The notes beneath the pieces are model-generated. The model was not told the origin of the DNA. It was given only the letters and a program-made list of their open reading frames with translations, and searched no databases. The translations under genes were made by a program, and so were the position numbers. A DNA stretch of 64,000 nt from Acephala macrosclerotiorum (Eukaryota; Ascomycota; Leotiomycetes; Helotiales; Mollisiaceae): the NCBI GenBank assembly GCA_014904845.1, contig MU119272.1, positions 62,001 to 126,000 of the forward strand, in the 5' to 3' direction. Of the stretch, positions 6,687 through 63,540 are shown one piece after another (positions within the stretch are counted from its first letter, which is position 1; every line of letters begins with the position of its first letter).

Positions 6687-7988
6687 CAATCGGTTCCAGG
6701 GGTTGTCCGTGAATCACGTGCTAGGGGTCTTACCCACTTTGAACTCTTATAACTTCACAACCAATGGTCCAATTCTTTCCATTCTTGAACTAAAAGAGAG
6801 CTAATCTAATACTTTGTTATTCCACCTTTGTTTTTGATACAAGCGTCTATCCTCTTCTCTATACTAGCGTTCAACTTCTCAAGCGTTTCCGGCTTGATTT
6901 GAGGCCAAATTTCCTCCAGTGCTCTCTCCATCATCCCTATATTCTTGATCTTATGCCTCCTCTTGCCGATTATATTCTTGATTTGCTTCCACAAATTCTC
7001 AATGGGAGAGAGATCTAGCGATTGGGCGGGCCATTGAAAAAGGGGAATGCCCTGTTCCCTCATGTAGTTTCTCACTACTTTGGCAGTGTGCCAAAGGGCA
7101 TTATCCTCTTGCATGACCACTCCTTCACCATACTTCTCAACCATTCGTCGATAAAAAGGAATAAAATGCTCTTTGACAGTCTGCAAATAGCGTTGCGCGT
7201 TCATTCTGCCCCCCTTCTCAATGATAACTAAAGGGCCCATCTCATTCCCACAAAAACAAGACCACACTCCCACCGAGGTTCTCCCGCTCTTGAAACTAAA
7301 GTTCAAGTTCTTTTCTAAGAACTCTTCCCCGGGCCCTCGAGTAACGTAGATAGTGTTTCCATCTGCTCCCACATGGAATGTGATCTCATCACTCCAACAG
7401 ATCTTCCGGTAGTTCCTTTTGGTCTTTTTTTGTTGTTTACACCAAATCAAACGCTTCCTTTTGTGTTCAGGCTTCAAATAGAGCTTACGGCGAGGCTTGC
7501 GCTTTGCTTTGCCGTGTTCTTTGAGGATTTTGCGGACCGTATTTCGAGAGAATTCATGCGTTGATTTGAACGGTGTTCCAAAAGCGTCAAAAGTGTCTTT
7601 TGGATTATTGAGAGCATGTCGAAGAAGTACCCTATCGTCTCGATCGAAGGTCTTCCTAGCAGGCCCACTTCGGGGCTTCGATTTGAAGGTATCGTCTTCT
7701 GTAGCTAGCCTGCGCTGGATAATATCTCTCACTGTAGAGTAGGGAGTGTCCTCTAGCCGTGAAATTGCGGCATATTTATGTCCATCAAGCCAGCGAGTCC
7801 AAATTTGACCTCTCTTCTTAGGGGAGGTCTCCTTTCGATCGGTCTTGATCTCGCGCGCCATTTTGATATAATTTAAGGGTATAGAGTGTGTGTGGGAAGA
7901 AGATATAAGCGGGGAAAGAGGGGCAGGGCGGGGCCCTAAGCACTAACCAAAAAGAGTAAAATTAACGGACAACCCCTGGAACCGATTG
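6687..7988 (-). mobile_element. Intact Tc1/mariner-type DNA transposon
   Basis: The element is 1302 bp, bounded by perfect 24-bp terminal inverted repeats (6687-6710 and 7965-7988, outer end CAATCGGTTCCAGGGG) and flanked by TA dinucleotides at 6685-6686 and 7989-7990, the target duplication expected for the superfamily. It holds one uninterrupted transposase gene on the minus strand. Identical inverted repeats together with an open reading frame indicate a young, possibly still mobile copy. Confidence 0.95.
6806..7861 (-). CDS. Tc1-like transposase (DD34E)
   Basis: A single exon of 351 residues starts at an ATG 127 bp inside the right inverted repeat. An N-terminal helix-turn-helix region (about residues 10-110) would bind the inverted repeats. 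The catalytic triad is visible as CWSDEITF, MQEDNALWH and SLDLSPIENLW. Exactly 34 residues separate the second Asp from the Glu, the DD34E spacing of Tc1-type enzymes. No stop or frameshift interrupts it and the length matches active relatives. The enzyme catalyses cut-and-paste movement at TA sites in the nucleus. Confidence 0.95.
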   Translation of the reverse strand: MAREIKTDRKETSPKKRGQIWTRWLDGHKYAAISRLEDTPYSTVRDIIQRRLATEDDTFKSKPRSGPARKTFDRDDRVLLRHALNNPKDTFDAFGTPFKSTHEFSRNTVRKILKEHGKAKRKPRRKLYLKPEHKRKRLIWCKQQKKTKRNYRKICWSDEITFHVGADGNTIYVTRGPGEEFLEKNLNFSFKSGRTSVGVWSCFCGNEMGPLVIIEKGGRMNAQRYLQTVKEHFIPFYRRMVEKYGEGVVMQEDNALWHTAKVVRNYMREQGIPLFQWPAQSLDLSPIENLWKQIKNIIGKRRHKIKNIGMMERALEEIWPQIKPETLEKLNASIEKRIDACIKNKGGITKY

Positions 7989-18372: not shown

Positions 18373-19644
18373 ATGTCATCTTCACTTTTGTTCTCAAGAA
18401 TCCCCTACTTCCCACCCGACGCAATCTTTGACCTCACACGGCAATTCCACCTCGACACCTTTCCGCAGAAAGTAAACCTCGGGCAAGGCACCTACCGTGA
18501 CGGCACCGGAGAGCCATGGATCCTCCCCGGCGTTCAAAGCGCGAAGAACAAACTTGAGGATCAAAATCATGAATACCTCCCCATCCTCGGCCTACCAAGC
18601 TTCCGAAAAGGCGCAACTGAATTGTTGTTTGGCAAGGAAAGTCCTGCTCTGAAGGAGAACAGAGTAGCCTCAATCCAATCACTTTCCGGTACGGGGGCTC
18701 TGCACCTTGCTGGTCTATTCTTGAAGCGATACATTGCTCCAACAAGTTCGGTTTATGTCAGTGAGCCGACTTGGTCGAATCACCATCAAGTATTCTCCTC
18801 GATTGGTTTCGAAGTTTGTACATACAACCACTACAACCCCGCCTCCAAAACACTAGATTTTGACAGCATCCTCGAGAATTTAAATACAGCTCCTGAGGGG
18901 TCGATATTTGTATTGCATGCGTGTGCACATAATCCCACTGGCTGCGACCCCTCTTTTGAACAATGGAAAGAGATAGCGAGGACAATGAAGAGGAGAAATT
19001 TATTCCCTTTGTTCGATGCTGCGTATCTAGGTATTAATTCTGGGAGCTTTGAGAGAGATGCCGGGCCGATGAGGTATTTTGTCGAGGAGATGGGGATGAG
19101 CGTTGCTGTTTGTTTGAGTTTTGCGAAGAATATGGGATTGTACGGTGAAAGAGTTGGCTGTGTGGCGATTATTTGTCCGGATTCTGAGGCGAAGAGGAAT
19201 ACGGAGAGTGTATTGGAGCAGTTGCAAAGGGCTGAGATCTCGAACCCACCCGCTTACGGTGCGAGGATTGCAGCAGCTATCTTGGAAGATAGTGAGTTGC
19301 GCGAGCAGTGGGGTAGAGATCTGCAGACTATGAGCTTGAGGATAGCTTCCATGAGGCAGAAACTGCTGCAGGAGTTGAAGAGTCTAGGGACTCCGGGGGA
19401 TTGGTCACACGTTGTGAATCAGACGGGGATGTTTTGTATTCTTGGGTTGAGTAAGGAACAGGTACGACATTTGCAGAGTATGTTTGCTTCCTACACAATT
19501 TTTGGACGAAAAATTGACGCGAGGCTAGATTATCACCATGTTTACATGGCGGGCAACTCGAGAATATCTGTGGCGGGATTGAATGATGGGAATGTGAAAT
19601 ACTTTGCGCAGGCGCTCGATGAAACGGTTCGCAATGTCTCATAG
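18373..19644 (+). CDS. Aspartate-type aminotransferase (class I, PLP)
   Basis: A single exon of 423 residues. The fold type I signatures are in order: NLGQGTYRDGTGEPW near the N-terminus, LSGTGALHLAG, the substrate/PLP segment HACAHNPTGCDPS, DAAYLG, and the PLP lysine in SFAKNMGLYGERVG. These are the aspartate aminotransferase subgroup motifs. No mitochondrial presequence is evident, so a cytosolic enzyme is likely. It exchanges amino groups between dicarboxylic amino acids and 2-oxoacids. An intronless gene beside heavily spliced neighbours is unusual here. It is more divergent than a housekeeping aspartate aminotransferase would be, and its position in the metabolic block suggests a dedicated role, for example on 4-hydroxyglutamate. 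That last point is inference. Confidence 0.9.
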   Translation: MSSSLLFSRIPYFPPDAIFDLTRQFHLDTFPQKVNLGQGTYRDGTGEPWILPGVQSAKNKLEDQNHEYLPILGLPSFRKGATELLFGKESPALKENRVASIQSLSGTGALHLAGLFLKRYIAPTSSVYVSEPTWSNHHQVFSSIGFEVCTYNHYNPASKTLDFDSILENLNTAPEGSIFVLHACAHNPTGCDPSFEQWKEIARTMKRRNLFPLFDAAYLGINSGSFERDAGPMRYFVEEMGMSVAVCLSFAKNMGLYGERVGCVAIICPDSEAKRNTESVLEQLQRAEISNPPAYGARIAAAILEDSELREQWGRDLQTMSLRIASMRQKLLQELKSLGTPGDWSHVVNQTGMFCILGLSKEQVRHLQSMFASYTIFGRKIDARLDYHHVYMAGNSRISVAGLNDGNVKYFAQALDETVRNVS

Positions 19645-62319: not shown

Positions 62320-62391
62320 GGACCGCTGGCGCAACGGTAGCGCGTTCGACTCCAGATCGAAAGGTTGTCCGTTCAAATCGGGCGTGGTTCA
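62320..62391 (+). tRNA. tRNA-Trp (CCA)
   Basis: A 72-nt intronless tRNA folds completely. The acceptor stem is GGACCGC with GTGGTTC (G2-U71 and G6-U67 wobbles), the D stem GCGC/GCGC, the anticodon stem TTCGA/TCGAA with loop CTCCAGA, and the T arm GTCCG-TTCAAAT-CGGGC. The anticodon CCA is at 62352-62354. Box A (TGGCGCAACGG) and box B (GTTCAAATC) are present, and short T runs follow downstream (62410s). Confidence 0.93.
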
Positions 62392-62674: not shown

Positions 62675-62710
62675 AAAAAAAATGTGTTCTAATCAAGGTA
62701 TGCCTTGATT
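62675..62710 (-). terminator. Hairpin plus T8 Pol III terminator of tRNA-Phe
   Basis: A perfect 8-bp hairpin (AATCAAGG with CCTTGATT, 4-nt loop) at 62691-62710 starts 10 nt beyond the tRNA 3' end. It is followed by a run of eight T (minus strand) at 62675-62682, a strong Pol III stop signal. Confidence 0.75.
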
Positions 62711-62720
62711 CGCAGATAGA

Positions 62721-62861
62721 TGCGGCTTCTGTGGATCGAACACAGTGCCTCCAGATTTCATGTCTGAAGTGATCTTCAGTCTGGCCTTTGAGATTGTTAG
62801 TTTGCGGATGTTGTTGATGGAAGTGGGTAAACATACGCTCTCCCAAGTGAGCTAAAGCCGC
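62721..62861 (-). tRNA. tRNA-Phe (GAA) with two introns, one spliceosomal-like
   Basis: Exonic parts are 62837-62861 (positions 1-25), 62774-62785 (26-37) and 62721-62756 (38-73); together 73 nt. Acceptor GCGGCTT/AAGCCGC, D stem GCTC/GAGC, anticodon stem CCAGA/TCTGG with loop CTGAAGA, and T arm CTGTG-TTCGATC-CACAG all pair perfectly. The anticodon GAA is at 62775-62777. The spliced sequence is almost the yeast tRNA-Phe. A 17-nt intron follows position 37, the normal site, and contains CTTCAG, complementary to the anticodon region as tRNA introns usually are. A second, 51-nt insert separates positions 25 and 26. Positions 15 (C) and 48 (A) break the usual tertiary pair, and the former also weakens box A, so reduced function is possible. 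Confidence 0.85.
62786..62836 (-). other. Spliceosomal-type intron inside tRNA-Phe
   Basis: The 51-nt insert starts GTATGT (62831-62836) and carries ACTAAC (62796-62801), with the branch A 11 nt from a terminal AAAG. This is the same size and signal set as protein-gene introns across the window. Its exact removal joins GAGC to GCCAGA as in yeast tRNA-Phe. It is not at the tRNA-endonuclease site. Confidence 0.7.
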
Positions 62862-63540
62862 TTTGAGTCTTGATTGGTTGATGAAGGGATTATGGGTATT
62901 CAAATCTATATCGACTTTAGGAAATAGAGGGTCAAGTCATGAGGAGAGATTTTGCCGAGGTGGGTATTTTGGCGGGAGGTGTGCCTATGAAATATGACAG
63001 CGGAGGACCCCCCTCAAAGTCTCACACATTATCAACGTAGAAAAATACCAGGTGCCAGTTCGGTGGATAAGTTGATAATTGTACTTGTGAGTCTGTTGTT
63101 ATGATTTCGTGTCAAAATCTCTCCAGTCCATTGTAAAAACCTTGTCTGGTGTGAAAAGTTGCTTTGAACTATAGGAAGATGAGCAGCCTTTCTTCTCTAA
63201 ATGTTGGCTCTACTGTGTTTGAATTACCCAACAGTGATCCTACGGTGCATGTGTCCTAAAGCCTGCCGATTGAGAAGATCCATGCATGTACTTCTATTCC
63301 TACTCACAGAGCATCCAGCGCCTAAGTTGTCAACAACCCGTCACATTAGCATCACGGCAGCAAGATGTCTGAAAAGGCCTTTTGTTCATTTCTCCGATGT
63401 GAAGCTTCTAAGCCGAGAGATATTTGTTATCACAATCCTACAGCATGGAAACCGCATGTTGCCAAATCACAGAATCCGAAGTCCGCTGCACTCAAACGCT
63501 CCAAGAAACGCCTTGCAAATCATCGTATCGTAACGTATCA
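62862..63540. other. Intergenic right of tRNA-Phe
   Basis: No gene was recognised. The segment probably holds the 3' UTR of the VanZ-like gene at its right end. Confidence 0.4.

Follow-up and report, generated by a model that had tools for sequence, protein, structure and literature searches.

Spliceosomal-type introns in tRNA-Phe and other tRNA genes of the fungus Acephala macrosclerotiorum

A tRNA-Phe(GAA) gene in a 64,000-nucleotide stretch of the genome of the root-dwelling ascomycete Acephala macrosclerotiorum (Leotiomycetes, Helotiales, Mollisiaceae; the whole stretch analyzed here is called the window below) is interrupted by a 51-nt insert. Judging from its sequence, we are highly confident that the insert belongs to the U2-type spliceosomal introns and that the gene works, that no fewer than 53 introns of this kind lie in 40 or more tRNA genes, and that this one would be spliced out before the tRNA endonuclease acts. 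We also consider it probable, with only slightly less assurance, that the spliceosome is an essential tRNA-maturation machine in this organism: about half of the resolved genes would need mRNA-type splicing, as would all genes found for eight or more isoacceptors, elongator Met and Phe among them, and Pol III initiation would rely on a TATA element upstream of the gene, which would allow even the B box to be split. The preliminary description of this DNA was confined to a single gene; its account of the tRNA-Phe insert held, and the phenomenon extends to at least 22 anticodons.

The tRNA-Phe gene lies on the minus strand at 62721..62861 (G1 at 62861, A73 at 62721) and consists of three exons and two introns, as seen from the cloverleaf formed once both introns are taken out. 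Exon 1 (62837..62861) provides tRNA positions 1-25, with the A box within it. The 51-nt spliceosomal-type intron at 25/26 (62786..62836) starts with GTATGT and ends with AAG; its predicted branch site, CTAAC (62796..62800), places the branch A at 62797, 11 nt from the intron end. Exon 2 (62774..62785, positions 26-37) carries the anticodon GAA at 62777-62775 and is followed by a canonical 17-nt tRNA intron at 37/38 (62757..62773), and exon 3 (62721..62756, positions 38-73) contains the B box region GTTCGATCC. The A box and B box regions are both intact. On the same strand, a TATA element, TATAGATTTGAATA, occupies 62897..62910, 36-49 nt upstream of G1, and a T8 run at 62675..62682 is the probable Pol III terminator. 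The sequence agrees with the preliminary description in the coordinates, in the position of the insert, its length of 51 nt, its GTATGT start, its ACTAAC branch word and its AG 11 nt past the branch A, and in having a 17-nt intron behind position 37; the strand is added here.

Without both inserts, the minimum free energy (MFE) fold of the RNA is the exact cloverleaf with 7, 4, 5 and 5 bp and a GAA anticodon, which bears out the earlier claim that a fully paired cloverleaf is restored by removing them. In the predicted fold of the unspliced 141-nt RNA the D-arm is absent. When segments of the gene were removed without restriction on their borders, the GT-AG removal at 25/26 was one of the two best-scoring. 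The insert does not occupy 37/38, the canonical position of endonuclease introns, which is taken in this gene by the separate 17-nt intron. The mature molecule presumably resembles yeast tRNA-Phe.

The split gene was called in the window neither by ARAGORN at default settings nor by Rfam, and ARAGORN with long introns allowed misread it as tRNA-Glu. The sole tRNA that these programs returned in the window was a tRNA-Trp(CCA) at 62320-62391 on the plus strand, uninterrupted and approximately 330 bp from the split tRNA-Phe; another tRNA-Trp, on C108 (L078), is interrupted in the variable region by a GT-AG insert of 59 nt. A 3' trailer hairpin, at 62691..62710 on the minus strand in the window, stands behind all four tRNA-Phe copies of the genome (the window copy, L002, L003, and L004), and GAACACA and a T-run come next. 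Among these four sequences, five of the eight hairpin pairs have both sides changed in at least one sequence, and one pair is lost through a gap in one sequence. Elsewhere in the window, a 351-aa open reading frame on the minus strand (6806-7861) has DDE_3 and HTH_Tnp_Tc3_2 domains and encodes a Tc1/mariner-like transposase.

Searches for tRNA-Phe were run against the assembly of 69.7 Mb in 778 contigs. A query made of the gene and its flanks matched tRNA-Phe 3' halves at four places in the whole assembly. The last 19 nt before the discriminator, with up to three mismatches allowed, occurred at 11 places, the four tRNA-Phe copies with 0 or 1 mismatches and the other seven with 3, and the first 15 nt, with up to two mismatches, occurred at 54 places, of which the three exact ones belong to three of the four copies. 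These three are complete genes that differ in their introns: the window gene (C71) is interrupted at 25/26, the C19 gene at 15/16, and the C175 gene at both sites. The mature tRNA is nevertheless identical from all three, with C15 and A48 throughout, and the 37/38 intron sits at the same place in the other two genes (20 and 17 nt). The fourth copy (C133) is a relic with no 5' half among the 54 places, a GAG anticodon, and C56 changed to T. This relic (L093:3430-3502) seemingly retains the 3' end of a 25/26 intron, and approximately 320 bp away the opposite strand carries an uninterrupted tRNA-Tyr gene.

An intact tRNA-Phe copy elsewhere in the genome would have weakened the case for the split gene; three kinds of search of the assembly (gene plus flanks, end patterns, and spliced query) found no uninterrupted tRNA-Phe. 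The preliminary description had also allowed, on account of positions 15 and 48, that the gene is a decaying copy. Because C15 and A48 are common to all three complete genes, they are a fixed trait rather than the decay of one copy, and a lone decaying copy is rejected, each complete gene having both bases and at least one GT-AG intron. A 181-base query against the assembly returned no second copy of the window insert. Introner-like or otherwise near-identical mobile introns were likewise rejected, since pairwise identity among 42 tRNA introns was at most 0.76, with a mean of 0.63.

The genome-wide survey resolved 53 spliceosomal-type introns, a minimum for the genome, in 40 loci with 22 anticodons. 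The interrupted loci are Phe GAA (three), Trp CCA, Lys TTT, Glu TTC (two), Glu CTC (three), Ser GCT (three), Leu TAA, Leu CAG, Arg TCG (two), Gln TTG (two), Gln CTG, Met CAT, Pro AGG, Pro CGG, Ala AGC (four), Ala CGC, Thr AGT (two), Thr TGT, Gly CCC, Gly GCC (five), Tyr GTA (two), and Cys GCA. The stems of the 40 spliced cloverleaves contain one mismatch in a few cases. Each resolved gene has at most two introns of this type, and by the scorer 25 of 33 interrupted loci have a canonical 37/38 intron as well. The junctions fall after nucleotides 6, 9, 13, 15, 16, 17, 18, 23, 25, and 30 of the spliced tRNA, counted from the 5' end; others are situated within the variable region or beside G53 of the T stem, and in three Gly(GCC) genes a junction lies in the T loop between 57 and 58, inside the B box. 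About 41 fetched tRNA genes are without such introns according to ARAGORN, an uncurated count from which overlaps with interrupted or odd genes were excluded.

Candidate loci for the survey were obtained from Rfam, from patterns of a B box plus a T-run, and from spliced-exon queries, and GT-AG segments were then removed by script; from the pattern lists, the places judged tRNA-like by eye were fetched. Three of the B-box lists comprised at least 100 matches each and the others 58 (T-run within 36 nt), 62, and 100 of 107, and for the class GTTCAANYC 100 of 187 matches were listed. Such patterns miss genes with a split B box, for example those for Gly(GCC) on C419, C37, and C54, which were read by eye and with a regular expression, outside the scorer. 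In the Rfam family search 63 of 2302 candidates were scored, and the intact Glu(CTC) gene on C14 was among the genes missed; none of the absences stated here is based on this search. Rfam gave no match to that uninterrupted gene (L107) even when it was presented directly; an Rfam miss alone is therefore no sign of an intron.

Several loci were set aside or required further work. L003 (a 5'-truncated relic) and L104 (score 41.5) were left out by hand, and L096, L099, and L137 (36-37) and L111 (30 or less) by score; L084 scored 28. No good cloverleaf was obtained at L095, L100, L102, and L133, of which L133 later reached 36.0 and L100 25.5, and L095 yielded nothing. L136 was admitted after the donor rule was relaxed, and a re-search of ten sequences resolved L136, L157, L161, and L162. 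The short stretches initially taken for L158-L160 ended within the T arm or its intron, and these loci were solved by eye on longer stretches.

L096, L111, L137, and L104 are probable tRNA genes (Gly UCC twice, one Glu-like, one unplaced) in which one, two, or three GT-AG inserts can be made out by eye, and their cloverleaves do not close cleanly. L108, L113, and L138 (two genes) are tRNA-like: a T-run is present and the acceptor, D, and T arms are paired, and the four genes, aligned to the Rfam model, have 64-85 nt in the anticodon arm at the place of 6-9 nt in the model. L099, which barely reaches the cut-off, and L109, L110, L140, and L141 probably belong to the same class, several members of which are clustered on C17, C98, and C117. 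These genes may represent either a separate class of tRNA-shaped RNAs or tRNAs with very long introns.

The splice signals of the resolved introns are uniform. All 53 have GT-AG borders, which were a condition of the search, and are 47-59 nt long, with G at +5 in 50 and A at +3 in 40 of them. CTRAY, the ascomycete branch-site word, was the best branch word in 44 of the 53 introns, compared to a mean of 6.9 with shuffled interiors, a looser branch word having been a condition of the search. The distance from the branch A to the intron end is 6-16 nt (median 11). For comparison, eight mRNA introns in two window genes, mapped with GT-AG required, measure 47, 47, 47, 49, 49, 51, 52, and 92 nt, have GT[AG]NG donors, and contain CTRAY in five of eight cases. 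One window gene (18373-19644) matches an aspartate transaminase of A. macrosclerotiorum with 96% identity, and the gap in the match is one in-frame mRNA intron of 51 nt. The tRNA inserts share their length class and signals with the mRNA introns of the two genes compared. The spliceosomal reading of the insert in the preliminary description is strongly supported by this likeness, by the donor, branch, and acceptor signals, consistent across the 53 tRNA introns, and by the absence of bulge-helix-bulge (BHB) enrichment described below.

The choice of GT-AG borders was examined with segment removal free of any border rule. GT-AG removal was among the top solutions for 29 of 42 introns (1.46 expected) in 33 test loci that had been preselected by cloverleaf score after GT-AG removal; for the remaining 13 introns, another removal was better by 0.5-4.5 points of a crude scorer. 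A penalized score of 36 was reached by all 33 real loci and by 1 of 495 shuffles, in which the sequence 5' of the T arm was randomized; a score of 39 was reached by 28 of 33 and by none of the 495, and a score of 42 by 17 of 33 real loci. The cloverleaves of these preselected loci therefore exceed what chance would give. With three kinds of decoy borders on the real loci, 36 was reached in 7-9, 39 in 3-6, and 42 in 1-5 of 33 loci. Decoy borders attain such scores because near-correct removals still score.

The flanks of the interrupted genes hold recurrent transcription signals. A TATA-G/T-ATTTAAATAAGC element was found upstream of 26 of 33 interrupted genes, compared to 1.1-1.3% of 75-nt stretches of the window, by a regular expression composed after the sequences had been seen; by eye, six of the other seven genes have weaker TATA forms and L139 has none. 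Runs of five or more T occur within 45 nt of 11 of the 12 interrupted genes found without a T-run query, against a background of 3.5-3.6%. Eighteen uninterrupted genes of the approximately 41 were compared in both respects: most have the TATA element by eye, and 16 have a T5+ run within 70 nt. Inside the tRNA introns, T4+ runs number 4 compared to 10.8 expected, with 1% of 300 shuffles as low; T5+ (1 vs. 3.0) and T6+ runs (1 vs. 1.0) are not significantly depleted. The single T6 run, in the second intron of the C175 tRNA-Phe gene, could stop Pol III. Many T-stem introns stop right before GTTCRA and thereby leave the B box whole. In contrast, introns split the A box of the tRNA-Phe genes on C19 and C175 and the B box of the three Gly(GCC) genes, and some of the promoter role may therefore fall to the upstream element. 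Judged by the TATA elements and the T-runs, the polymerase would be Pol III.

The introns would be spliceosomal as well if the tRNA exons were contained in capped, spliced Pol II transcripts from which the tRNA is cut out afterwards. Splicing by the spliceosome normally goes together with transcription by Pol II, TATA elements serve this polymerase too, and the split internal promoters and the T6 run inside one intron speak for such an arrangement. However, the T5+ runs behind nearly all of the interrupted genes tested, the same TATA and T-run organization of the uninterrupted genes, the scarcity of T4+ runs in the introns, and the many T-stem introns that spare the B box all weigh against it, and we regard a Pol II origin of these RNAs as improbable.

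A second alternative, that the inserts are non-canonical endonuclease introns at BHB motifs, is much less plausible still. In the available parts of two reports, non-canonical tRNA introns of eukaryotes are described from nucleomorphs and Cyanidioschyzon merolae (PMC4090602, PMC3978253), and in these lineages and in archaea they lie at 25/26, 30/31, and in the D and T arms, with sometimes several and up to three per gene, positions that overlap with those found here. In archaea and C. merolae, according to the same parts, these introns are tied to the BHB, whereas the inserts described here follow a GT-CTRAY-AG scheme; the Guillardia theta nucleomorph introns measure 3-24 nt, compared to 47-59 nt here. 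Exact BHB geometry was present at 0 of 42 junction pairs (permuted mean, 1.05), and with slides of up to 3 nt at 12 of 42 compared to 11.3 for permuted pairs, so that the motif is not enriched, by a test that performed weakly on its positive control (of 25 canonical introns, 4 were exact and 13 fitted with slides). In addition, a BHB origin gives no reason for the GT, the +5 G, CTRAY, or the AG.

Comparison of paralogues brings out a constraint on the exons. The four Ala(AGC) genes with two introns each have no exon difference in 73 positions in any of the six pairs, and between their introns 31-48% of the aligned columns differ. Among three Gly(GCC) genes, the exons show 0-2 differences in 71 positions, against 12-37% for the two spliceosomal introns. 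The exons of four Glu(CTC) genes are identical: the C14 gene is without an intron, and those on C73, C144, and C313 have one of 53-54 nt at one site.

Spliced queries turned up no intron-free copy for eight isoacceptors: Phe, Ala(AGC), Gly(GCC), Gln(UUG), Glu(UUC), Lys(UUU), Leu(UAA), and elongator Met. This search (30 of 30 candidates scored, 48 matches) missed the C93 gene for Gly(GCC) and all four of the Ala(AGC) genes already known, in which the exons are cut into short pieces; a copy with no interruption would present longer pieces, of a size that was listed for other tRNAs, and a diverged one could escape. Lys(UUU), Leu(UAA), and elongator Met are apparently single genes, and the intact Met gene (L021) has features that we take to be those of the initiator. 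Uninterrupted copies do exist for Tyr (C133), Trp, Thr(AGT), Pro(AGG), Cys, and others. If the assembly, on whose completeness the absence of intron-free copies hinges, is near complete, the cell must splice these eight isoacceptors to live, which we consider the strongest argument for functional splicing. That the interrupted loci are dead copies with reverse-spliced mRNA introns, the tRNA coming from unseen intact genes, is the least credible of the alternatives: one truncated tRNA-Phe relic (C133) exists and genes can be missing from assemblies, but paralogue exons are identical or nearly so while their introns diverged, the cloverleaves are fully or nearly fully paired, no intact tRNA-Phe appeared in any of the three kinds of search, and eight isoacceptors would need to be missing at once.

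For spliceosomal introns in Pol III-transcribed tRNA genes, the following order of maturation may be proposed. Pol III would make the pre-tRNA from the upstream TATA element and, in genes that keep them whole, the internal A and B boxes and would end at the T-run. The major spliceosome would then take out the 47-59-nt GT-AG introns in the nucleus, as their signals and the constraint on the exons suggest. The tRNA body would fold after this step, and the ends would be trimmed. The tRNA endonuclease measures the mature tRNA body, and the 37/38 intron would be the last to leave, by the action of this endonuclease and the ligase.

Introns of this kind have partial counterparts in other RNA genes. 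The rRNA genes of the nuclear rDNA are transcribed by Pol I, unlike tRNA genes. In the accessible text of two reports, spliceosomal introns are present in these structural RNA genes in ascomycetes (PMC2586383, PMC11782384). A closer counterpart is the U6 snRNA of fission yeast, where, in the available portion of the source, an mRNA-type intron in a Pol III gene is attributed to reverse splicing (PMC10484740); as in the present case, a spliceosomal intron interrupts a non-coding RNA made by Pol III. U6 is, however, one snRNA that sits in the spliceosome, whereas here dozens of tRNA genes are concerned, with no more than two such introns per resolved gene. The best U6 copy of A. macrosclerotiorum (47 of 4550 candidates scored) is a full-length match to the model with no insert, and a U6 intron was thus rejected as a parallel within the same genome. 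The canonical tRNA introns at 37/38, removed by endonuclease and ligase, co-occur with the inserts in many of the same genes and differ from them in position, length, and sequence signals.

A literature search of mostly open-access scope, with subscription papers and preprints largely outside it, returned no report of spliceosomal introns in tRNA genes. The accessible portions of PMC12730881, PMC4494063, and PMC13130702 likewise contain none, and in those of the review PMC4090602 no word starts with "spliceosom". As far as found, a spliceosomal intron in a Pol III gene is thus known from U6, and its occurrence in tRNA genes and at this scale is new.

In the textbook division of labor, tRNA introns are removed by endonuclease and ligase and mRNA introns by the spliceosome. 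Here, one precursor seems to need both splicing machines, and this for tRNAs that are indispensable to the cell. The finding opens several questions to direct tests: how Pol III transcripts reach the spliceosome, in which order tRNA processing takes place, whether splicing and the capacity for translation are linked, and how spliceosomal introns are gained and lost. The last of these is approachable because identical Glu(CTC) genes with and without an intron both exist in this genome. Many of the genes described here were overlooked or misread by ARAGORN and Rfam at the settings used, and similar ones may therefore hide in other genomes. Altogether, the gene structures suggest that in A. macrosclerotiorum the mRNA splicing machine is also needed to produce working tRNAs.
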